Assembly: GCF_900129395.1 (NCBI RefSeq)
Contig: NZ_FQVP01000008.1
Location: forward strand, 1 to 64,000
Length of the DNA stretch: 64,000 nt
Direction: 5' to 3'
Source: Pseudosulfitobacter pseudonitzschiae
GTDB lineage: Bacteria > Pseudomonadota > Alphaproteobacteria > Rhodobacterales > Rhodobacteraceae
The notes under the pieces are model-generated. The model had not been told where the DNA came from. It ran no database searches and worked only from the letters and a program-made list of their open reading frames with translations. A program made the translations under genes and the position numbers. Of this stretch, positions 26,061 to 36,368 are shown piece after piece. Each line of letters begins with the position of its first letter. The stretch's first letter is position 1.

Positions 26061-26666
26061 TCAGATATCGAAAAAGATCGTCTCGTCCGGCCCCTGCAGA
26101 TGGATGTCGAACAGATAGGTGCCATCGCCTTGCGGCTCTCCCATCAGCGTCGGCACCCGCACTTGATGCTCGATCCGTTTCAGCACCGGATCGGCGGCGT
26201 TGGCCTCGGGTTCGTCTGCGAAGTACATCCGCGTATGAAGGCCAAGGTTGATGCCGCGCGCCACGATCCAGAAGGTGATGTGCGGCGCCATCGGCGTGCC
26301 GTCGCGGTTTTGTACGGCTCCGGGTTTGATCGTCTCGAACCGGAACGTGCCGTCGTCCATATCGGTGGGGCAGCGGCCCCAGCCGTAAACATCCGCGTCT
26401 GCCCCATCCTGACCGGGATAGATGCCGCTGGCGTCGGCATGCCAGATTTCCAGAAGCGCATCGCGCAGGGGCGTGCCTGTGCCGTCCAGCACGCGGCCTT
26501 TGATCGTGATCCGGTCGCCCTTTGGCGCGTCGCCCAGCATGGTCGTGCCCAGATCGGCGTCATAAACACCGGTGATGCCGCTGTAATTCGGCGTCAGGCC
26601 GATGTGCACATAGGGGCCCGCCGTCTGCGATGGGCTTTCCTTGAGGTTGTCCAGTTTCTGTACCAT
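26061..26666 (-). CDS. pcaG: Protocatechuate 3,4-dioxygenase alpha subunit
   Basis: This 201-residue intradiol dioxygenase subunit contains ESPSQTAGPYVHIGLTP at the N-terminus, GDRITIKGRVLDGTG, LLEIWHADASGIYP and PHITFWIVARGINLGLHTRMYF. The alpha subunit supports the active site of the iron-bearing beta subunit (PcaH) and is itself metal-free. The ATG at 26666 overlaps the pcaH stop (TGATG). Together they convert protocatechuate to 3-carboxy-cis,cis-muconate. Confidence 0.95.
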   Translation of the reverse strand: MVQKLDNLKESPSQTAGPYVHIGLTPNYSGITGVYDADLGTTMLGDAPKGDRITIKGRVLDGTGTPLRDALLEIWHADASGIYPGQDGADADVYGWGRCPTDMDDGTFRFETIKPGAVQNRDGTPMAPHITFWIVARGINLGLHTRMYFADEPEANAADPVLKRIEHQVRVPTLMGEPQGDGTYLFDIHLQGPDETIFFDI

Positions 26667-27397
26667 CACAGCCCCTCCATCCGGTTTTCGAACATGGTCT
26701 GGCGCACGCCGCGCAGCACGATGTCGAATTTATAGGCACGGGCGTCCATCGGCACGGTGCGGCGCATGTCCAGCGCGGCCACCAGCGTTTCAATCGCCTC
26801 GCGCGAGGGGATCGTCCCGACTATAGGGCACTGCCAGATCATCGGGTCGCCTTCGAAATACATCTGGGTGATCAGGCGCTGGCCAAACGATTGGCCGAAG
26901 ATCGAAAAGTGGATGTGCGCGGGCCGCCAGTCGTTGGGGCCGTTGGGCCACGGGTAGGGGCCGGGCTGGATCGTGCGGAATTCGTAGTTGCCCTGTTCAT
27001 CAGTGATCACACGCCCGCAACCGCCAAAGTTGGGGTCAAGCGGGGCAAGATAGCTTTCTTTTTTGTGACGGTAGCGGCCACCGGCGTTGGCTTGCCAGAC
27101 TTCGACCAGCGCATTTGGCAGGCCGCGCCCGGTTTCGTCCAGAACACGACCATATACGATGATGCGCGGCCCGATGGCCGATTGTCCCTCGCTGGCAAAG
27201 TTGTGGATCAGGTCGGCGTCCTGCGGGCCCAGAATGTCGCGTGTGAACACGGGGCCGGTGTCTTCGCTCAGCGTCGAGGGCATCGAAATGGGGGCCGCAG
27301 CGGGCGAGCGTTTGACGCTGGTTTTATACGGCGGCGTTAGCGCGGCAGGGTGCCAGCTGCGGTCGCGATGGAACAGGCCAGAGGGTTTATCCGTCAC
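26666..27397 (-). CDS. pcaH: Protocatechuate 3,4-dioxygenase beta subunit
   Basis: This 243-residue catalytic subunit has all four Fe(III) ligands visible: Tyr109 (GRYRHKKE), Tyr148 (GPYPWPNG), His161 and His163 ([11 protein letters not shown]). These are in the same spacing as the classical Tyr108/Tyr147/His160/His162 set. It starts with GTG, overlapping the pcaC stop (GTGA). The order is pobA-pcaC-pcaH-pcaG. Confidence 0.96.
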
Positions 27398-27774
27398 TGT
27401 GTGTCCTCCATTTCGGCGTAGGTCGCCTTGGCCAAGGCTATCGCGTGGTTGGCCTTGGGGACACCCGCATAAATCGCGACGTGCTGGAACGCTTCGATCA
27501 CGTCCTGTTTGCTGGCACCTGTGCGGGCGGTGGCGCGGATGTGCATCGGGATTTCCGAAAAGTTGCCGGTCGCCGCCAGCAGCGCCAGCGTCAGCATCGA
27601 CCGCTCGCGGCGGCTGATGGCGTCGCTGGCCCAGACGGTGCCCCAGGCGCTTTCGGTGATCAGCCCCTGAAACGGTTGGTCAAAGTCGGTCTTGTTGGCC
27701 TCGGCGCGGTCCACGTGGGCGTCGCCCAGCACCTCGCGGCGTACCTTCATGCCAATGTCTGTCTTGTCGCTCAT
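27394..27774 (-). CDS. pcaC: 4-carboxymuconolactone decarboxylase
   Basis: This 126-residue CMD-family protein reads [17 protein letters not shown] at the N-terminus and [24 protein letters not shown] with the family's catalytic Arg-Glu-Arg-Ser. It ends [22 protein letters not shown]. The protein converts 4-carboxymuconolactone to 3-oxoadipate enol-lactone. The ATG at 27774 was preferred over an upstream extension that would enter pobA. It lies 10 bases from the pobA stop. Confidence 0.94.
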
Positions 27775-27784
27775 GTGGGGGTCC

Positions 27785-28954
27785 TCAATAGGGCAGGCCG
27801 ACGTAATTCTGGGCCATTGCGGTCTGGGCGGCAGGGCTTTCACGCAAGAAGGCCAGTTCAGCCAGTTGCATCTTTTTGTCGAATTCGGACTGGCCCGGAT
27901 AGGTGTGCATCAGGTTCGAGAACCACCAGCTGAACCGCTCGGCTTTCCAGACGCGGGCCAGGGCGCGTTCAGAGTAGTGGTCGATACCGTCGCTGTCGTG
28001 GTTTAGGTAGAACTGTTTCAGCCCGTTATACAGGTAATGCACGTCGGATGCGGCGGTGTTCAACCCCTTGGCCCCCGTGGGCGGGACGATATGCGCGGCG
28101 TCACCGCACAGGAACAGCCGCCCCCAGCGCATCGGTTCGGTCACAAAGGACCGCAGCGGTGCGATGGATTTTTCGATGCTGGGGCCGGTGATGATCGTGT
28201 CGGCCGCGCTTTGCGGGATACGACGTTTCAATTCGTCCCAGAATGCGTCGTCTGACCAGTCGTCGACGCTGTCGGTGGCGGGGCACTGGATGTAATAGCG
28301 GCTGAGATGGGCGTTGCGCATGCTGCACAGGGCGAAACCGCGTTCCGAGTTGGAATAGATCAGCTCGTCATCCACGGGCGGGGTTTCCGACAGGATGCCG
28401 AGCCAGCCAAAGGGATAGACCTTTTCGTATTCGCGCCGCTGCGCTTCGGGAATGGTTTTGCGGCTGACGCCATGAAAGCCGTCGCATCCGGCGACAAAGT
28501 CGCAGTCGATCCGGCTTTGCTGTCCGGCCTTGGTGTAGGTCACATAGGGCGCGTCAGTCTTGGCGTCGTGGATCACGACGTCCTCGACCTCGTAAATCGT
28601 TTGCAGGCCGGCCTTGTCGCGGGCTGCGTAAAGGTCGCGGGTCACTTCGGTCTGGCCATAGACCATGACAGAGCTGCCGGTGTGTTCGGCAAAGTCGATG
28701 CGGAACATGTCACCGTCATATCCGACCATGGTGCCGTCGTGAACAAAGCCTTCGGCGTGCATCCGGTCGGACACGCCTGCCTGTTCCATCAGACCCACCA
28801 GCCCGCGCTCCAGCACGCCCGCGCGGATGCGGGACAGAACATATTCCTGTGTCTTGCGCTCCAGAACGACAGCTTCGATGCCTTGCGTGTGCAAGAGTTG
28901 GCCCAAAAGCAGACCGGACGGACCCCCGCCGATGATGATGACTTGCGTTCGCAT
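27785..28954 (-). CDS. pobA: 4-hydroxybenzoate 3-monooxygenase
   Basis: This 389-residue class A flavoprotein hydroxylase has GGGPSGL near 9-15 for FAD, YVLSRIRAGVLERG for the PobA substrate loop, the CDGFHG motif, and GDAAHIVPPTGAKGLN near the C-terminal third. It converts 4-hydroxybenzoate to protocatechuate, which PcaGH then cleaves, so the gene heads its own pathway. The promoter lies in the 90-base divergent gap shared with pcaQ. Confidence 0.96.
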   Translation of the reverse strand: MRTQVIIIGGGPSGLLLGQLLHTQGIEAVVLERKTQEYVLSRIRAGVLERGLVGLMEQAGVSDRMHAEGFVHDGTMVGYDGDMFRIDFAEHTGSSVMVYGQTEVTRDLYAARDKAGLQTIYEVEDVVIHDAKTDAPYVTYTKAGQQSRIDCDFVAGCDGFHGVSRKTIPEAQRREYEKVYPFGWLGILSETPPVDDELIYSNSERGFALCSMRNAHLSRYYIQCPATDSVDDWSDDAFWDELKRRIPQSAADTIITGPSIEKSIAPLRSFVTEPMRWGRLFLCGDAAHIVPPTGAKGLNTAASDVHYLYNGLKQFYLNHDSDGIDHYSERALARVWKAERFSWWFSNLMHTYPGQSEFDKKMQLAELAFLRESPAAQTAMAQNYVGLPY

Positions 28955-29003
28955 AGTGAGTTCCTCTTCCTGACGCGAACTTAATGGTGTTTCTATGCAA
29001 GTA

Positions 29004-29035
29004 AATTGATATGTTTGGTCGTATACTTATCAATT
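29004..29035. promoter_or_regulatory. Inverted repeat in the pobA/pcaQ divergent promoter
   Basis: AATTGATA at 29004-29011 and TATCAATT at 29028-29035 form a perfect 8-base inverted repeat with a 16-base spacer, centred between the divergent genes. LysR regulators bind such dyads; PcaQ is the obvious candidate. Binding is inferred. Confidence 0.6.
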
Positions 29036-29044
29036 CTGGTAACC

Positions 29045-29956
29045 ATGATCGATCCACGTATCAAATTCCGCCACATCCAGTGCTTTGTCGAGATCGTCCG
29101 GCAGGGCAGCCTGAAGGGTGCATCTGAGCGGTTGAATCTGACCCAGCCCGGCGTTTCGCGCACGCTCAAAGACCTTGAGGAAACGCTGGGGGCGATACTG
29201 TTGGAACGCGACAGGGGCGGTGTGACCCTGACCCCGCAAGGCGAGGTGTTCTGGCATTTCGCCCAGACTTCCATGGCTGCGCTGCAACAGGGGTTGGACG
29301 GTGTTGATCAGTTGACGCGCGGCGGGCGTACCGTGGTGGCCGTGGGCGCGTTGCCCTCGGTCGCGGCCAGCCTGATGCCGCAGGTGGTGGTGCATCTGGC
29401 GACAGCCGCCCCCAAGACGCAGATGCATATCGTCGAGGGCGCACATGGCGATCTGGTGGGACGGTTGCGGGCGGGGGCCTTGGACATGGTGATCGGGCGG
29501 CTGGGTCCGGTTGAGACGATGCAGGGTCTGTCGTTCACCCAGCTTTACACCGAGGTCGTGGACATGGTGGTGCGCCCCGGTCATCCGTTGCTGCGCGCCC
29601 CGCAACTGGCATCTTTGCGCGATTGGCCCGTGATCTATCCGCCGCGCGACAGTGCGATTTACGGGTTGGTCGAAACCTTCATGCTGGCGAACGGTATCGG
29701 TGATTTGCCTGACAAACTGGAAACCGTGTCAGGGGCCTTTGCCCACGTCTATACCCCCGTGTCGGATGCGGTGTGGATCATTTCGCACGGGGTGGTGGCT
29801 CCGGCGCTGGCGGCGGGGCGGTTGGTGCGGCTGCCGTTTGATACGGGGCCAACTCGGGGGCCGATCGGGGTGATGACGCGCGCGGGTCAGTCCGCCAGTG
29901 CGGCATCGGACACGGTTCTGTTGGCAGCGCGCAAGGTTCTGGCCGAGCGGGATTAA
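29045..29956 (+). CDS. pcaQ: LysR-type regulator PcaQ
   Basis: This 303-residue LysR regulator opens IDPRIKFRHIQCFVEIVRQGSL, the PcaQ signature, and the HTH continues ASERLNLTQPGVSRTLKDLEETLG. A ligand-binding domain follows (VAVGALPSVAASLMP). PcaQ activates pca genes in response to 3-carboxymuconate or muconolactone intermediates in rhizobia. The ATG at 29045 was chosen because residues then align with the family; the frame upstream runs into the operator. It is divergent from pobA-pcaCHG. Confidence 0.92.
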   Translation: MIDPRIKFRHIQCFVEIVRQGSLKGASERLNLTQPGVSRTLKDLEETLGAILLERDRGGVTLTPQGEVFWHFAQTSMAALQQGLDGVDQLTRGGRTVVAVGALPSVAASLMPQVVVHLATAAPKTQMHIVEGAHGDLVGRLRAGALDMVIGRLGPVETMQGLSFTQLYTEVVDMVVRPGHPLLRAPQLASLRDWPVIYPPRDSAIYGLVETFMLANGIGDLPDKLETVSGAFAHVYTPVSDAVWIISHGVVAPALAAGRLVRLPFDTGPTRGPIGVMTRAGQSASAASDTVLLAARKVLAERD

Positions 29957-30013: not shown

Positions 30014-31555
30014 TTAGTCGGAAATCGACCCTTCGTCGTCGCCGCGCTCGTGCATCTTGGCCTTGACCTTGCGGCCCACGATCAGCGGCAGGACAAAGCC
30101 GATGATCGCAACCAGCCACAGACCAATCGCCAGCGGGCTGTCGATCAGGGTGAACCAATCGCCGTTGTCGATGGTGATCGCGCGGCGCAGGTTGTTTTCC
30201 ATGGCGTTGCCCAGCAGCGTGCCCAGGATGATGGGCACCAATGGCACGTCAAACTTGCGCAGCACCCAGCCCAGCACGCCAAAGCCGATCATGACCAGCA
30301 GGTCGAAAGACGATCCGGAGATACCGTAGATGCCGACAAAGGACACCATCGCCACCACTGGCATCAGGATGCGCGGCGGCACCATCAGCACGCGGGTGAA
30401 CAGGCCCACCATCGGGATGTTCATCGCAAGCAACATAAAGTTGGCGATGAACAACGCGGCGATCAGTCCCCAGACCACATCGGGGTTCTGGGTGAACAGC
30501 AGCGGACCGGGTGTGATGTTCAGCGACAGCAGAACCGCCAGCAGAACCGCAGTGGTCCCAGACCCCGGAACACCCAGCGCCAGCATCGGCACCAGCGCGC
30601 CACCGGCGGCAGCGTTGTTGCCTGCTTCGGGTGCCGCGACACCGCGCGGATCGCCCTTGCCAAAGGTCTTGCCATCCTTGTCGACCAACCGCTTTTCGAA
30701 GGAATACGATATGAACGACCCCAACGAGGCGCCCGCACCGGGCAGAACACCCGCGATGAAACCCAGGATCGTCGAGCGGATCATTGTTGGTGTGGTTTGC
30801 TTGAGCATCGACATAGGCGGCGTCAGGCGTCCCACCTTGATCTTTGAGGCCGATGCGCTGGCGTCGCCGTGACGATGCTCGAGGAAGATAAACACTTCCG
30901 ACAGGGCAAACAGGCCCACGATGGCCACAAGGAAATCCAGCCCGTCGTAAAGGTGCACTTCGCCGAAGGTAAACCGCGGCACACCGGTTTGCGTGTCAAC
31001 GCCGATCATTGCCAGGCCCAGACCCAAGGCAGCAGCAAAGGCCGACTTGGCCTGGTTGGTCGACGACACGCCGCCCAGTGTCATGAACGCCAGTGCAAAC
31101 AGGGCGAAATATTCAGCCGGACCGAACAGCAAGGCGATCTTGACCAGCTGCGGCGCCAGGAAGATCAGCCCCCATGTGGCAAAGAACGCGCCGACAAAGG
31201 ACGCGATGCCAGACAGCGACAGGGCTTGGCCCGCCATGCCTTTTTTTGCCATCGGGTAGCCGTCCAGGCAGGTCATCATTGCCGGTTCGTCGCCGGGAAT
31301 GTTCAGCAGGATCGACGAGATCCGCCCGCCGTACATCGCCCCGTAATAGACCGAAGTCAGCAGGATCAACGACGCGGTCGGTCCCAGGCCAAGGGTAAAG
31401 GCCAGCGGGATCAGGATCGCCACGCCATTCGATGGCCCGAGGCCGGGCAGCGCACCCATGATGGTGCCCAGAAAACAGCCCAATAAGGCCAGCAGGATAT
31501 TCTGCCACGTCAACGCGATGGCAAAACCGTCAGCAAGAGATGCGAAGGTTTCCAT
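30014..31555 (-). CDS. tctA: Tripartite tricarboxylate transporter, large permease TctA
   Basis: This 513-residue inner-membrane protein has about 12 hydrophobic segments. Family motifs include LGTIMGALPGLGPSNGVAIL near the N-terminus, YYGAMYGGRISSILLNIPGD and NNAAAGGALVPMLALGVPGSGTTAVLL-type sequence in the second half. TctA is the main transport pore, working with TctB and the periplasmic receptor TctC on tricarboxylates or related acids. It lies 12 bases after tctB. Confidence 0.94.
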   Translation of the reverse strand: METFASLADGFAIALTWQNILLALLGCFLGTIMGALPGLGPSNGVAILIPLAFTLGLGPTASLILLTSVYYGAMYGGRISSILLNIPGDEPAMMTCLDGYPMAKKGMAGQALSLSGIASFVGAFFATWGLIFLAPQLVKIALLFGPAEYFALFALAFMTLGGVSSTNQAKSAFAAALGLGLAMIGVDTQTGVPRFTFGEVHLYDGLDFLVAIVGLFALSEVFIFLEHRHGDASASASKIKVGRLTPPMSMLKQTTPTMIRSTILGFIAGVLPGAGASLGSFISYSFEKRLVDKDGKTFGKGDPRGVAAPEAGNNAAAGGALVPMLALGVPGSGTTAVLLAVLLSLNITPGPLLFTQNPDVVWGLIAALFIANFMLLAMNIPMVGLFTRVLMVPPRILMPVVAMVSFVGIYGISGSSFDLLVMIGFGVLGWVLRKFDVPLVPIILGTLLGNAMENNLRRAITIDNGDWFTLIDSPLAIGLWLVAIIGFVLPLIVGRKVKAKMHERGDDEGSISD

Positions 31556-31567
31556 GTGGGGGCCTCC

Positions 31568-31999
31568 TTAAAATCCGAGGGGACCACGTGCGAGCGACAG
31601 GCCCAGCACGAGGTGAAAAATGACATAGATGCCCACCGATGTGCCCACACCCGTGGCAACCGAGGCCAAAAACCCCGAACCTAGGCGCCAGGTCAGGTAA
31701 CCGGCGGCAAAGCAGGTGGCGATGATGAACCCCAGTTCAGGCAGCAACTCGGCGTACAAGATCATTACGACAGCCGCCGCGAGGATCTCTGCCAGACGGC
31801 CAAGGCTGGGCCATGCCGGCGACGCATCGGGTTTGAGCGCAATTGCAAGCGAGCTGAGGCCGAGAATGGCGGCGATGATCAGAGGGAAGGCTTTGGGGCC
31901 TACGGCGTCGGACAGAAAGCTTTCTTCGATCGCGAGGGCGGCAAATGCAAAGCCGATCGCGAGAAGGATGCCGACGACGCCAAAAATGCGATCAGACAT
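31568..31999 (-). CDS. tctB: Tripartite tricarboxylate transporter, small permease TctB
   Basis: This 143-residue membrane protein has four hydrophobic helices (IFGVVGILLAIGFAFAALAI, AFPLIIAAILGLSSLAIAL, ILAAAVVMILYAELL, VATGVGTSVGIYVIFHLVLG). It is the usual size of TctB. The start at 31999 was preferred over an upstream in-frame Met because the hydrophobic segment then begins at once. It lies between tctC and tctA in the standard order C-B-A. Confidence 0.9.
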   Translation of the reverse strand: MSDRIFGVVGILLAIGFAFAALAIEESFLSDAVGPKAFPLIIAAILGLSSLAIALKPDASPAWPSLGRLAEILAAAVVMILYAELLPELGFIIATCFAAGYLTWRLGSGFLASVATGVGTSVGIYVIFHLVLGLSLARGPLGF

Positions 32000-32094: not shown

Positions 32095-33093
32095 TTACTT
32101 GATGATGCCGATCTCGCGCGAGATGGCGGCGATTTCGGCGACGTTGTCAGCCACGAAGGCTTCGAAGTCCGCGCCTTGCAGGTCCAGCGGGGCCAGGCCG
32201 TTGTTGGCCATGACCTCTTTCCACTGGTCGCTGGCGTAAAGTTCACCGATCTTCGAGACCCAGGCGTCATAGGCTTCGTCGCTCATGCCGCCGGGGGCGT
32301 AGAAACCGCGCCAGTTGGCACCGATGGCGTCAACGCCCTGTTCCTTGGCGGTCGGGAAATCGGCGAAATCGCCTTCCAGACGCTCGGGCGCCAGAACCGC
32401 GATGACGCGGATGTCACCGCTGTCCACGAACCCTTTGGCTTCCGAGGCGTCGCCGGTGAAGGCCTGGACCGAACCGGCCAGCAGCTGGGTCACCGCCTCG
32501 CCGCCGCCGTCAAAGGCGATGTATTTGACCGAACGCACGTCGTCGATGCCATAGGCGTTCGCGGCGATCAGGACCTTCAGGTGGTCCCAGCCGCCAACAG
32601 CCGAACCACCTGCAACGGAAACGCTGGTGGGGTCGGTTTTGATCTTCTCAAGCAACTCGGGGAGATCCTTGATCTCGCTGTCCGCGGCCACGGCGATCAC
32701 ACCATAGTCGGCACCGACAGACGCCAGCCAGCGAACCTGTTCCATTGTGTTGCCCGGATAGGCACCTTGCGCCAGACGTGTGGCCGTGGCGGACGATGCC
32801 GCGACGATCAGGTCGTTGCTGTCATTGCGCTTGTTGACGACTTCGGCAAAGGCCACGCCACCGCCGCCACCGGCAAGGTTCACGACTTGCATGGTCTTTT
32901 CGATCAGACCTTCGTCCTGCAACATCTTGCCCACCTGACGGCAGGTGAAGTCCCAACCGCCGCCGGGGTTGGCGGGGGCGATGCATTCGGGGCTTTCAGG
33001 GGTAAAGCCCTGGGACTGTGCACCGGCGGCGAAAGTCGCCATAAAGGCCGCGGCGATGGTCAGGCGGCTTGCCTTGGTGATCTTGCTGATCAT
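32095..33093 (-). CDS. tctC: Tripartite tricarboxylate transporter substrate-binding protein TctC
   Basis: This 332-residue periplasmic receptor has a signal peptide at 1-27 (basic start, hydrophobic core AAAFMATFAAGAQSQG). The mature part shows APANPGGGWDFTCR, VNLAGGGGGVAFAEVVN and the GSAVGGWDHLKVL loop typical of TctC/Bug binding proteins. It delivers the substrate acid to TctBA. The gene is divergent from tctD and has the palindrome region upstream. Confidence 0.93.
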   Translation of the reverse strand: MISKITKASRLTIAAAFMATFAAGAQSQGFTPESPECIAPANPGGGWDFTCRQVGKMLQDEGLIEKTMQVVNLAGGGGGVAFAEVVNKRNDSNDLIVAASSATATRLAQGAYPGNTMEQVRWLASVGADYGVIAVAADSEIKDLPELLEKIKTDPTSVSVAGGSAVGGWDHLKVLIAANAYGIDDVRSVKYIAFDGGGEAVTQLLAGSVQAFTGDASEAKGFVDSGDIRVIAVLAPERLEGDFADFPTAKEQGVDAIGANWRGFYAPGGMSDEAYDAWVSKIGELYASDQWKEVMANNGLAPLDLQGADFEAFVADNVAEIAAISREIGIIK

Positions 33094-33118
33094 GGGTGGT
33101 CCTCCACTTTAAATCTGT

Positions 33119-33168
33119 CGGGCAGTTTCGATGCCCGAATTCCGTGCCAACGCACTGCAAATTGCAGT
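33119..33168. promoter_or_regulatory. Two dyads in the tctC/tctD divergent region
   Basis: CGGGCA (33119-33124) faces TGCCCG (33132-33137). A perfect palindrome ACTGCAA-A-TTGCAGT occupies 33154-33168. The second is the better operator candidate for the response regulator TctD acting on tctCBA. The assignment is by position only. Confidence 0.5.
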
Positions 33169-33254
33169 CTCCTCGCGAATGGCTGATAAGTGTTTAGGCG
33201 ACAAAGCTGTCGTGAACCTGTCATGTGGGCGCAAGGCAGTCGAGGGAGAGGCTG

Positions 33255-33926
33255 ATGCGGGTTTTGATCGTGGAGGATGCCACCGATGTGGCCGAGGCTG
33301 TGGCCGTTCGGCTGCGCAAGTCCGGCATGGCCTGCGATGTGGCCGATTGCGTCGCGACCGCCGAGGATTTTCTGGCGGTGCAGACCTATCAGGCGATCGT
33401 TCTGGACATCAACCTGCCCGACCGCAACGGCACCGCATTGTTGCAGGACATGCGCGCACGCGGTGATCGCACGCCGGTTTTGATGCTGACAGCACAGTTT
33501 TCCGTGGATGACCGGATTTCGGCGCTGAACCTTGGTGCGGATGACTATCTGGTAAAACCCTTTGACCAGCGCGAGCTGGACGCCCGCCTGCGCGCCCTTA
33601 TGCGTCGCGAGGCCGCGCAGAAATCGGACGAGGTCACGCTGGGGCCGCTTTGCTTTTCGGCGGCTGCGCTGACGGCTACACTGGATCAAAGGCCGCTCGA
33701 TCTGACCCGCCGCGAGGCGACCCTTTTGGGTATGCTCCTGCGTCATCAGGGACAGGTCGTCAGCAAGCAGCGGCTCTATGACGGGCTGTTCGCGTTCGAC
33801 GACGCGGATGTCGGGTTGAACGCAATCGAACTTTACATCGCGCGGCTGCGCAAGAAGCTGACCCCGTCACCGGTGCGGATCGAAACGCAGCGCGGGCTGG
33901 GATACCGGATTTTCCAGGATGACTAG
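33255..33926 (+). CDS. tctD: OmpR-type response regulator TctD
   Basis: This 223-residue regulator has a receiver domain with acidic pocket VEDATD and phospho-acceptor Asp51 (VLDINLPDRNG), and Lys in YLVKPFDQ. The C-terminal OmpR winged helix reads DLTRREATLLGMLLRHQGQVVSKQRL and ends RIETQRGLGYRI. The start at 33255 is the family start; ten more codons are open upstream. It overlaps tctE by eight bases. It should activate the divergent tctCBA when phosphorylated. Confidence 0.92.
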   Translation: MRVLIVEDATDVAEAVAVRLRKSGMACDVADCVATAEDFLAVQTYQAIVLDINLPDRNGTALLQDMRARGDRTPVLMLTAQFSVDDRISALNLGADDYLVKPFDQRELDARLRALMRREAAQKSDEVTLGPLCFSAAALTATLDQRPLDLTRREATLLGMLLRHQGQVVSKQRLYDGLFAFDDADVGLNAIELYIARLRKKLTPSPVRIETQRGLGYRIFQDD

Positions 33927-35307
33927 AATCCTGCGCGGCGGACCGCGGACATTGCTGGCGCGGGTGATGATCGGAGTTCTGTCGTTGCTGGCGCTGGGCG
34001 GTGTGGTGGTGGCCATTGCCACGTTTGAATACGGTCGCAGCGCTGCGCGGCAATCGTTCGACAGGTTGCTGGTGGGGGCGGCACAGGACATCGCGGAATC
34101 AATCAGCATCTCGGACGGTGCGCCGCTGGTCGATCTGCCTGTCTCCGCGTTCAGCCTGTTGTCGCTGGCCGCAGATGACCGCATTTTCTATGCGGTCCAT
34201 GAAACCGATGGCAGCCTGTTGACCGGCTACGAGGGTTTCGACCTGCGCGGGGTGGTCCAGCAGGACCTGACGCAACCCGCCTTTTTTGATGGCCGCATGC
34301 AGCAAGAGCCAGCCCGTTTCGTGACCGTGGCCCGTCCATTTGCGGAACGCGCATATTCAGGGCGGATATTCGTCACGGTGGGCCAGACCCTGCGCGCGCG
34401 CAGTGCGCTGGCGCTGGATTTGACCACGCGCGCGCTGATGCTGACGGGGGCTGTGGGGATTGTGCTGCTTGTCAGTGCCTTTCTGGTGATCCGTTCGGCG
34501 ATGCGCCCGCTCGAGGGGCTGACGGCCGAACTGTCGCGGCGCGATCCCTATGATCTGACGCCGATGCCCACAGGTGGCCCTGCAGAGATGGCGGTGATGG
34601 TGCAGGCGATGAACCGGTTCATGTTCCGTCTGGACCGGCAGGTGGGGGCGATGAAAAACCTGATCTCTGACACCGCGCACCAGTTACGCACACCGGTGGC
34701 CGCTATCCGCGCGCAGGCCGAGCTTGCGCTTGAGGATGACGAGGACAACCGCGCCCAACGATTGCAGCGGATGGTGCGGCGGACCCGGTCGTTGGGCACG
34801 TTGCTGGACCAGATGCTGTCGCGGGCGCTGGTCATTCATCGCACCGAAAACGCGGCACCCAAACCGGTCGACCTGCGCGACATTGCATTGGGTGTGTTTG
34901 AAAGCGTCGAAGATGATCCCGATGCGCAGGTCCAGTTGAGCATTGGCGACCAGCCGGTGATGGTCATGGCAGACGAGATTTCGATGGGCGAGGCGGTCAA
35001 GAACATGCTCGCCAATGCGCTGCGGCATGGGGTGGCCCCGGTGGTGATCGGCGTTTCGGGCGTGGGCGCGCACAGCGAGATCTGGGTACAGGATGCGGGC
35101 GGCGGCCCGCCTGCCGATGTGCTGACCACCATGGGGCGACGGTTTGAACGGTCCGCCGCGTCCAAAGGAAACAGCGCGGGTCTTGGCCTGTCCATCGTGC
35201 GCGCGGTGACCGAGGCTTTTGACGGTCAGATGCACATGGGGCAGGTCGCAGAGGGGTTCCGCGTTACGCTGACCTTTCCGGCCGACACTGAAGGGGACGC
35301 TGTATGA
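33919..35307 (+). CDS. tctE: Sensor histidine kinase TctE
   Basis: This 462-residue kinase has two membrane segments (about 13-35 and 172-191) flanking a periplasmic sensor region. The H-box is at His254 (SDTAHQLRTPVAAI). N, G1 and G2 boxes follow (NMLANALRHG, QDAGGGPP, SAGLGLSIVR). It phosphorylates TctD. The 4-base overlap with the next gene (ATGA) links it to a binding-protein-like partner. Confidence 0.9.
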   Translation: MTRILRGGPRTLLARVMIGVLSLLALGGVVVAIATFEYGRSAARQSFDRLLVGAAQDIAESISISDGAPLVDLPVSAFSLLSLAADDRIFYAVHETDGSLLTGYEGFDLRGVVQQDLTQPAFFDGRMQQEPARFVTVARPFAERAYSGRIFVTVGQTLRARSALALDLTTRALMLTGAVGIVLLVSAFLVIRSAMRPLEGLTAELSRRDPYDLTPMPTGGPAEMAVMVQAMNRFMFRLDRQVGAMKNLISDTAHQLRTPVAAIRAQAELALEDDEDNRAQRLQRMVRRTRSLGTLLDQMLSRALVIHRTENAAPKPVDLRDIALGVFESVEDDPDAQVQLSIGDQPVMVMADEISMGEAVKNMLANALRHGVAPVVIGVSGVGAHSEIWVQDAGGGPPADVLTTMGRRFERSAASKGNSAGLGLSIVRAVTEAFDGQMHMGQVAEGFRVTLTFPADTEGDAV

Positions 35308-36368
35308 TTGCCCTGATGCTTCGTCAGTTTGCTCTGGTCTGTGTGGGGCTGGTGATATGCCTGCCCCGCGCCGACGCACAGGAAGCGGTTGCACAATTCA
35401 CCGCCCCCGGTGCCACGCCGACCTCCGAACTGACCTTGCGGTCCACCACCGACATTGCCGTTCTCAGCCCCGCCTTGCAGGCCTTTGTGACGCTCTATCC
35501 GGGTATCCGTTTGAACTATGAACAATGGGGATCAAATGCACTCTATGCCGACAGTCTTGGGGCGTGCATGGGGGACACCCGCGCCGCGGACGCGGTGTTT
35601 TCGTCGGGGGTTCACCAGATGGTTGATCTGGTGAACCGGTTCTGCGCCGAACCTTACATCTCTGGCCTGACAGCAGGCTTGCCCAAGGCGCGGCGCTGGC
35701 GGGACGAGCTGTGGGGCGTTACGAAAGAGGCGGCGGTGGTGATCTACAACACCGATCTGGTTCCGTTGGACGATGCCCCGCGCACACGGTTCGACCTGTT
35801 GGACCTGATGCGGCGCAAGTCCGCCACCTACAGCGGCAAGATTGCCACCTATGACATCGAGGAATCGGGTCTGGGTTATCTCTTTGCCTTCATGGACAGC
35901 CAGCAGGCAACCACCTTTGGGGGGCTTCTCGAAGGGTTCTCGCGCGTGGATGCGGTGGCAACGTGCTGTTCCGCCGAGATCATTTCAGGCGTGGACAGCG
36001 GACAGTACCTGTTGGCCTACAACGTGTTGGGTTCCTATCTGGATTTTGCATCCTTTCCCCGCGTCGGGGTGATCTATCCGCAGGATTACACGCTGTTTCT
36101 GTCGCGTGCCTATATGATCCCGAAGACGGCAGAAAACCCGCAGAACGCCGCCTTGCTGCTGGATTTCCTGCTGTCCGGTCCGGGCCAGGCGATTCTGGCC
36201 GACAGCAATCTGGTGCAGCGTGACAGCGCCGACGAGACCGGGCTAGAGCAGAGTATCCAGCGCTATATTTCCATTGATCCCACGCTTTTGGTGGCAATGG
36301 ACAGGCAGCGGCGGCTGTTGTTCGAGGACAACTGGCGCACAACCTTCGACCGGGCTGAGCGGCCCTGA
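35304..36368 (+). CDS. Periplasmic substrate-binding protein coupled to TctDE
   Basis: This 354-residue protein has a signal peptide (LVCVGLVICLPRADA, cleavage near residue 25). The fold reads like an iron(III)/thiamine-type ABC binding protein: STTDIAVLSPALQAF, a mid-chain TKEAAVVIYNTDLV and a C-terminal AENPQNAALLLDFLLSGPGQAIL. No permease or ATPase gene is adjacent. Its start overlaps the tctE stop (ATGA), so it probably acts as an accessory sensor of the kinase rather than as a transporter subunit. That role is inferred. Confidence 0.8.
   Translation: MIALMLRQFALVCVGLVICLPRADAQEAVAQFTAPGATPTSELTLRSTTDIAVLSPALQAFVTLYPGIRLNYEQWGSNALYADSLGACMGDTRAADAVFSSGVHQMVDLVNRFCAEPYISGLTAGLPKARRWRDELWGVTKEAAVVIYNTDLVPLDDAPRTRFDLLDLMRRKSATYSGKIATYDIEESGLGYLFAFMDSQQATTFGGLLEGFSRVDAVATCCSAEIISGVDSGQYLLAYNVLGSYLDFASFPRVGVIYPQDYTLFLSRAYMIPKTAENPQNAALLLDFLLSGPGQAILADSNLVQRDSADETGLEQSIQRYISIDPTLLVAMDRQRRLLFEDNWRTTFDRAERP

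Follow-up and report, generated by a model that had tools for sequence, protein, structure and literature searches.

The window, a stretch of 64,000 nucleotides from Pseudosulfitobacter pseudonitzschiae (contig NZ_FQVP01000008.1, positions 1 to 64,000), possesses a tctCBA cluster for a tripartite tricarboxylate transporter and, oriented divergently from it, three genes encoding a response regulator, a sensor histidine kinase (HK), and a solute-binding protein (hereafter SBP). In this study, we characterized this locus computationally and asked how far the SBP can be regarded as the signal receptor of the kinase. The six genes are as follows.

30014 to 31555, minus strand: tctA, large membrane subunit (Pfam TctA)
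31568 to 31999, minus strand: tctB, small membrane subunit (Pfam TctB)
32095 to 33093, minus strand: tctC, solute receptor of the tripartite tricarboxylate transporter (Pfam TctC)
33255 to 33926, plus strand: TctD-type response regulator of the OmpR family (Pfam Response_reg and Trans_reg_C)
33919 to 35307, plus strand: TctE-type sensor kinase (Pfam 2CSK_N, between two hydrophobic segments, HisKA, and HATPase_c)
35304 to 36368, plus strand: dedicated SBP of 354 amino acids, of the MctA/3c9h type, the proposed signal receptor

The combination of a 2CSK_N kinase with an OmpR-type regulator, divergent from tctCBA, is that of a TctDE pair, and the best NCBIfam model for the regulator was TctD, with a score of 213.9 bits that is under the 337-bit cut-off of the model. 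The SBP has a signal-like hydrophobic segment at the N-terminus; it matched Pfam SBP_bac_1 with 29.7 bits, above the 26-bit cut-off, and SBP_bac_8, SBP_bac_11, and SBP_bac_6 below their cut-offs. The predicted periplasmic domain of the kinase covers approximately residues 37–172. An earlier inspection of this DNA (hereafter the sequence-only reading) had reported overlaps of 8 bases between tctD and tctE and of 4 bases between tctE and the SBP gene, and both are borne out by the coordinates, the latter overlap being ATGA. This linkage of the SBP gene to the kinase gene is that of three-component systems, and the overlap suggests a single transcript. The same inspection had noted that no permease of the ATP-binding cassette (ABC) type is nearby, and indeed no ABC permease or ATPase family was found among 29 open reading frames (ORFs) scanned with Pfam between approximately 17.1 and 48.3 kb, which are a part of the ORFs of that span; five of the 20 flanking ORFs in the scan had no family at all and may be wrong frames.

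To place the locus among its relatives, we used a set of 50 related loci, of which 45 contain clear relatives of the SBP (51–96% identity) and five contain weak ones (24–26%); kinase or regulator matches were not found at the five weak loci. The six genes had the same arrangement at 44 of the 45 close loci, the exception (L075) being interrupted by a contig end. The nearest named relative is a Sulfitobacter locus (L032), whose six proteins are 96–99% identical to those of the window. The overlaps, counted at 43 loci (L046 and L075 omitted) with the start codon nearest to the upstream stop, were also retained: the kinase and SBP genes overlapped by 4 bases at 40 loci and by 1 base at the remaining three, and the regulator and kinase genes overlapped by 8 bases at 38. 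Three genes flanking the six-gene unit in the window, for a PcaQ-type regulator, an amidase, and an agmatine-deiminase-like protein, were found among the 45 loci only in the near-identical L032. Because the tested flank genes occur only there, the SBP appears to form the right boundary of the conserved unit. The same genes recur at SBP identities as low as 27–39%.

The association of the SBP with the kinase extended to wider samples. In 198 genomes of the family, an SBP match at E ≤ 0.001 was present in 113 genomes. A TctE-type kinase was located within 2.5 kb of 98 of the 101 strong SBP matches (E ≤ 6.8e-30) and of one of the 27 weaker matches, that of genome G152 (E 2.5e-12), with kinase matches counted at E ≤ 1e-30. 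For 10 of the weaker matches, the comparison with the kinase positions was done by eye, and none of them lay close to a kinase. Seen from the kinase, an SBP was present for every one of the 25 closest kinases in the family sample. In a sample of the phylum, 60 of 398 genomes had an SBP match at 1e-15, and the best 30 loci, one of which is the window and some of which belong to the same family, all had a kinase nearby; the SBP gene was divergent from the regulator and kinase genes at five of these 30. At L162, L163, and L164, the SBP gene, tctC, and tctA are co-directional and divergent from the regulator and kinase genes. A very divergent SBP (23%) lies by a kinase at L161 (genome G152) and adjoins a phosphonate-type binding protein and an ABC permease; this module has possibly turned to another ligand. 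Seven mechanically picked ORFs among the neighbors at L166, L167, and L169 gave no Pfam match, probably because their frames are wrong.

We regard fusion as the strongest evidence that the kinase and the SBP act together. Both were found in a single ORF in four of 98 family pairs, namely, L082 (844 amino acids), L097 (821), L103 (816), and L105 (820), the status of pairs that were not fetched being judged by open-frame lengths. L084, a candidate by frame length, was rejected, since its SBP is not in the frame of its kinase match. The Pfam order in the single chain of L103 was 2CSK_N, HisKA, and HATPase_c, followed by SBP families. Between the kinase and SBP parts, the fused ORFs keep a hydrophobic segment resembling a former signal peptide, and the linker of L105 contains a start codon with a Shine–Dalgarno-like sequence, so that the SBP part may be translated separately there. 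In a tree of 74 rows, the fusions needed two changes, forced by well-supported branches; on this tree, the predicted fusions arose at least twice.

A structural model of the SBP (mean pLDDT 91.5, pTM 0.88) was most similar to 3c9h from Agrobacterium tumefaciens (Z 42.0, rmsd 2.1 over 324 residues) and also matched MctA (7f6e series; Z 40.5, rmsd 1.9 over 310 residues). The Z values were 40–42 for wild-type MctA and 3c9h chains versus 28.4 for AfuA and 23–28 for ferric-binding proteins. MctA and 3c9h, with approximately 26–29% identity to the SBP, are its closest solved structures by both sequence and fold. The titles of the MctA structures describe a metal-citrate-binding protein, deposited as an ABC-transporter protein; a literature search found no publications on MctA or 3c9h. 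The six positions altered in the deposited MctA mutants (S26, D28, S79, S164, T199, and Y221) correspond to T48, D50, S101, S188, S223, and Y245 of the SBP, as read by hand from the alignment with a numbering offset of two that was hand-checked on the T199A chain. Four of them are identical, and the S26-to-T and T199-to-S changes are conservative. All six were invariant in an alignment of 40 rows, namely, the window plus 39 of the 45 close loci. In a more distant set of 68 rows, in which some genes occur twice, 63 to 67 rows kept D50, S101, S188, and Y245; T, A, or S stood at position 48 in 67 rows, and S or T at position 223 in 60. By fold and by these retained positions, the SBP belongs with the MctA/3c9h group, and its likeliest ligand is citrate-like, with or without a metal. 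FbpA has an adjacent tyrosine pair as its iron site, and no adjacent YY pair is present in the SBP sequence. The description of the SBP in the sequence-only reading as iron-binding-protein-like thus holds for the fold, but 3c9h and MctA are well above FbpA and AfuA as structural matches, and it is the MctA positions that are conserved.

We then compared evolutionary distances across 80 loci, which are mutually related and include at least one genome twice (L048 and L109 are apparently the same contig). The SBP distances correlated with those of the HK sensor (r = 0.90), the HK catalytic part (0.94), and the regulator (0.89), and less with those of TctC (0.73) and TctA (0.72), whereas TctC and TctA correlated with each other at 0.98. 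The partial correlations were 0.36 for the SBP with the HK sensor, 0.39 with the HK catalytic part, and −0.01 with TctC. A permutation gave 0 of 500, which, because the loci are related, is no clean probability. These correlations, direct and partial, indicate that the SBP has evolved together with the regulator and kinase, and TctC together with the transporter. The claim of the sequence-only reading that regulator, kinase, and SBP make up a single sensor linked to the divergent tctCBA is supported by synteny, neighborhood counts, HK–SBP fusions, and this apparent co-evolution.

As a candidate operator for TctD, we identified the following repeat in the gap between tctC and the regulator gene.

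33207 to 33223, plus strand: direct repeat CTGTCGTGAACCTGTCA, 17 bp with an 11-bp period, the proposed TctD operator

Its core, CTGTC-N6-CTGTC, lies at 33207 to 33222 and contains the longest invariant stretch in an alignment of 21 gaps. The core was present in all 44 close gaps (the window and 43 loci), and these 43 loci contain in total only 45 such sites in their 1.107 million bases of both strands; with a final A added to the pattern, 0.01 sites are expected in the window after shuffling. Among 35 further stretches that we chose, 30 represent distant loci in which tctC is divergent, and all 30 contain a variant of the 11-bp repeat within 250 bases of the regulator gene, having an A in place of the T in either the first half-site or both (background of this looser pattern, approximately 0.015 per 250 bases, sites included). 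The repeat was found in one of nine SBP-less paralogues. Upstream of the regulator gene in three of the four fused loci (L097, L103, and L105), there are three half-sites at 11-bp steps, not two. OmpR/PhoB-type regulators bind direct repeats of this period, and as a sequence feature the repeat, with its period of approximately 11 bp and its location in the control region, has the form of such an operator. The genome of the window has five matches to CTGTC-N6-CTGTCA versus one for the reversed control. Because the other four lack the AA before the second half-site that is common to most relatives (by eye), the TctD regulon is likely local. When the stretch from the direct repeat to the palindrome described below was inspected by eye for a promoter of tctC, no −10/−35 spacing proved consistent across relatives.

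These observations are consistent with a three-component signal system, composed of the SBP, TctE, and TctD, that controls the tripartite tricarboxylate transporter via the direct repeat, a reading to which we assign a probability of about 65%. In the mechanism that we infer, as regards the identity of the ligand, the docking, the direction of control, and the binding of the operator, the secreted SBP would bind a citrate-like tricarboxylate in the periplasm, possibly as a metal complex, and would dock on the 2CSK_N domain of TctE. TctE would then phosphorylate TctD, which would bind the repeat at 33207 to 33223 as a head-to-tail dimer and increase tctCBA transcription, perhaps along with that of its own operon. 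TctC would serve mainly as the receptor for transport.

Several observations weigh against this reading, and each is considered here with the explanation that it favors. On the side of the operator, no direct repeat was found upstream of the regulator gene at the three SBP-first loci (L162, L163, and L164) or at the single locus L082, and it was present at four of seven other loci; in addition, a second control element is possible because inverted repeats are enriched at the place of the palindrome. On the side of the receptor, TctC itself might signal, with the extra SBP as an accessory protein that scavenges or buffers the ligand. In Bordetella, it is BctC, the TctC-family protein of the transporter, that does the signaling to BctE in response to citrate (PMC5812351, PMC9602780), and PMC8102459 gives a TctE–TctC interaction as a general scheme, so TctC could signal here too. 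A tctC gene is, moreover, present in nearly all family loci examined. However, the TctC distances track TctA, the partial correlation of TctC with the HK sensor was just 0.11, and the fusions and the 4-base overlap link the kinase to the other SBP rather than to TctC. We consider signaling through TctC unlikely.

A second explanation is that TctE senses the acid directly through 2CSK_N and that the SBP only tunes it, for example, as an inhibitor in the apo state. In the family sample, the SBP was absent for 42 of the 141 kinase matches; these are TctE relatives with a similar architecture, and one such TctDE-like pair (L152, also G000:C8) is in the genome of the window itself. The nine fetched SBP-less kinase loci (L152 and L153 to L160) each adjoin a TctA match with 30–33% identity, which suggests that 2CSK_N kinases can work without an SBP. 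The association also fails in the opposite direction, since three strong SBP matches (in G061, in G069, and a second copy in G182) had no listed kinase within 2.5 kb. Nevertheless, the closest kinases without exception have an SBP, and the conserved pocket positions mapped from MctA would not be needed by a mere scaffold. We regard direct sensing as quite unlikely. A caution of a more general kind comes from AgtS and AruS, for which no SBP binding was found; neighboring SBP and kinase genes are not always linked in function, and gene neighborhood alone has misled before (PMC11113362). For the present locus, the fusions, the overlapping genes, and the co-evolution agree, and both a ligand class and a 17-bp operator are predicted. 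It is very improbable that the SBP instead serves an ABC or other transporter whose genes lie elsewhere, its location here being due to chance or co-expression. In favor of this are the fold class of the SBP, shared with ABC-type receptors, and the deposition of MctA as an ABC-transporter protein; against it, the scanned ORFs include no ABC permease, and the SBP is linked to TctE-type kinases in both the family and the phylum samples and fused to them in some cases.

The sequence-only reading had assigned the control of tctCBA to a palindrome in the gap, next to which, nearer tctC, lies a second inverted repeat.

33154 to 33168, no strand assigned: palindrome ACTGCAAATTGCAGT
33118 to 33138, minus strand: inverted repeat TCGGGCA-N7-TGCCCGA, in the tctC leader

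The palindrome exists at this position, and the chance expectation for perfect 7-base arms with a spacer of 0–8 bases is approximately 0.09 per 161-base gap (161 × 9/4^7). Its exact sequence was present in two of the 44 gaps (the window and L032), a related inverted repeat of the ACYGC type was read in eight, and in some near relatives the palindrome recurs with changes that match between its arms. Symmetry at this place was more widespread than the sequence: inverted repeats with arms of at least 5 bases occurred in 26 of the 44 gaps versus a mean of 9.7 (highest, 17) in plain letter shuffles, which also served for the next two counts. In the 30 long gaps, 20 had such a repeat (shuffle mean 6.7; highest of 200 shuffles, 14), and in the 14 short gaps, six did (shuffle mean 2.6; as high in 3 of 200 shuffles), where some of the repeats are the hairpin of the tctC leader. 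Closer to tctC, directly before its ribosome site, a hairpin likewise recurs with differing sequences, and the mean best stem in the tctC leader was 5.6 bp over the 44 gaps versus 4.15 bp for letter shuffles (highest of 100, 4.45 bp). As a TctD operator the palindrome is disfavored, its sequence being kept in few relatives and the direct repeat in all divergent loci examined. What stands of the earlier assignment is that inverted repeats are enriched here, and what does not is the palindrome as the best operator candidate. Because the symmetry is kept while the sequence drifts, an RNA hairpin would suit the place better than a site for a conserved regulator; the place is perhaps that of a hairpin at the start of the tctC transcript, and the palindrome is probably a real feature of a kind other than a TctD operator. 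The place is possibly also a second leader hairpin or the site of another factor. That TctD works through the palindrome and not the direct repeat is, in spite of the enrichment and the matched arm changes, highly improbable, given that the direct repeat was found in all close gaps and, with a matched change, in all 30 distant divergent loci and that OmpR-type regulators are established binders of direct repeats.

Beyond the transporter genes, protocatechuate dioxygenase genes and the gene for the PcaQ-type regulator lie just past tctA, at 26061 to 29956. Adjacency of such a regulator to tct was seen only in L032, with little flank covered at the other loci (approximately 0.7 kb or less on the left side of the close loci).

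More tentatively, and with less than even confidence, we propose that the locus belongs to a family of three-component systems for citrate sensing, widespread and so far undescribed, whose TctE kinase has a receptor of its own. In at least two lineages, this receptor would have become fused to the C-terminus of the kinase, where a third membrane segment after the catalytic end would leave it facing outward, to fold back on the sensor domain of its own chain or to be freed by signal peptidase. If this is true, a C-terminal receptor fusion would be an unusual architecture for a histidine kinase, and the natural fusions would offer a built-in test of which kinase surface the receptor touches. A literature search that covered few subscription journals showed, among the matches listed, no publication dealing with C-terminal fusions of HK and SBP or with a dedicated SBP encoded next to TctDE.

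The structural matches of the SBP also included 6lkg (Z 24.4; titled "two-component system protein mediate signal transduction"), which we take to be HptA. To our knowledge, no kinase fusion has been described for the HptASR system. HptASR of Staphylococcus aureus resembles the present locus in that a binding protein, the kinase HptS, and the regulator HptR are encoded divergently from the transporter gene that they control, uhpT; there, the signal reaches the kinase through HptA, which binds the ligand (PMC8774646). It differs in its Gram-positive host, in its ligand and transporter (glucose-6-phosphate and UhpT), and in the structure of its binding protein, which is more distant from the SBP than MctA is. 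BctC–BctDE of Bordetella pertussis shares with the locus the TctDE-type regulators, a tripartite tricarboxylate transporter, and signaling from a periplasmic receptor to the kinase (PMC5812351, PMC9602780), but there the TctC-family receptor of the transporter itself signals, whereas in the window a separate receptor of another family accompanies the kinase. TctDE of Salmonella and Pseudomonas aeruginosa is likewise a regulator–kinase pair linked to tricarboxylates; however, the available text of PMC6403454 and PMC5812351 does not mention a third SBP, and the P. aeruginosa pair acts on the porin gene opdH. MctA and 3c9h resemble the SBP in fold, and MctA also at its six mutated positions, but both are distant in sequence, were deposited as ABC-transporter proteins, and have titles that state no kinase role. 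Only about 10 SBP-activated sensor kinases have been characterized (PMC9602780). Because several lines of evidence agree and a ligand class and an operator are predicted, this small locus makes SBP–kinase signaling, and the division of sensing and transport between two receptors, directly testable. By comparison with these systems, the locus appears to be of the SBP–kinase three-component type, in which the logic is known from HptASR and BctC and the dedicated SBP with TctDE is apparently new.

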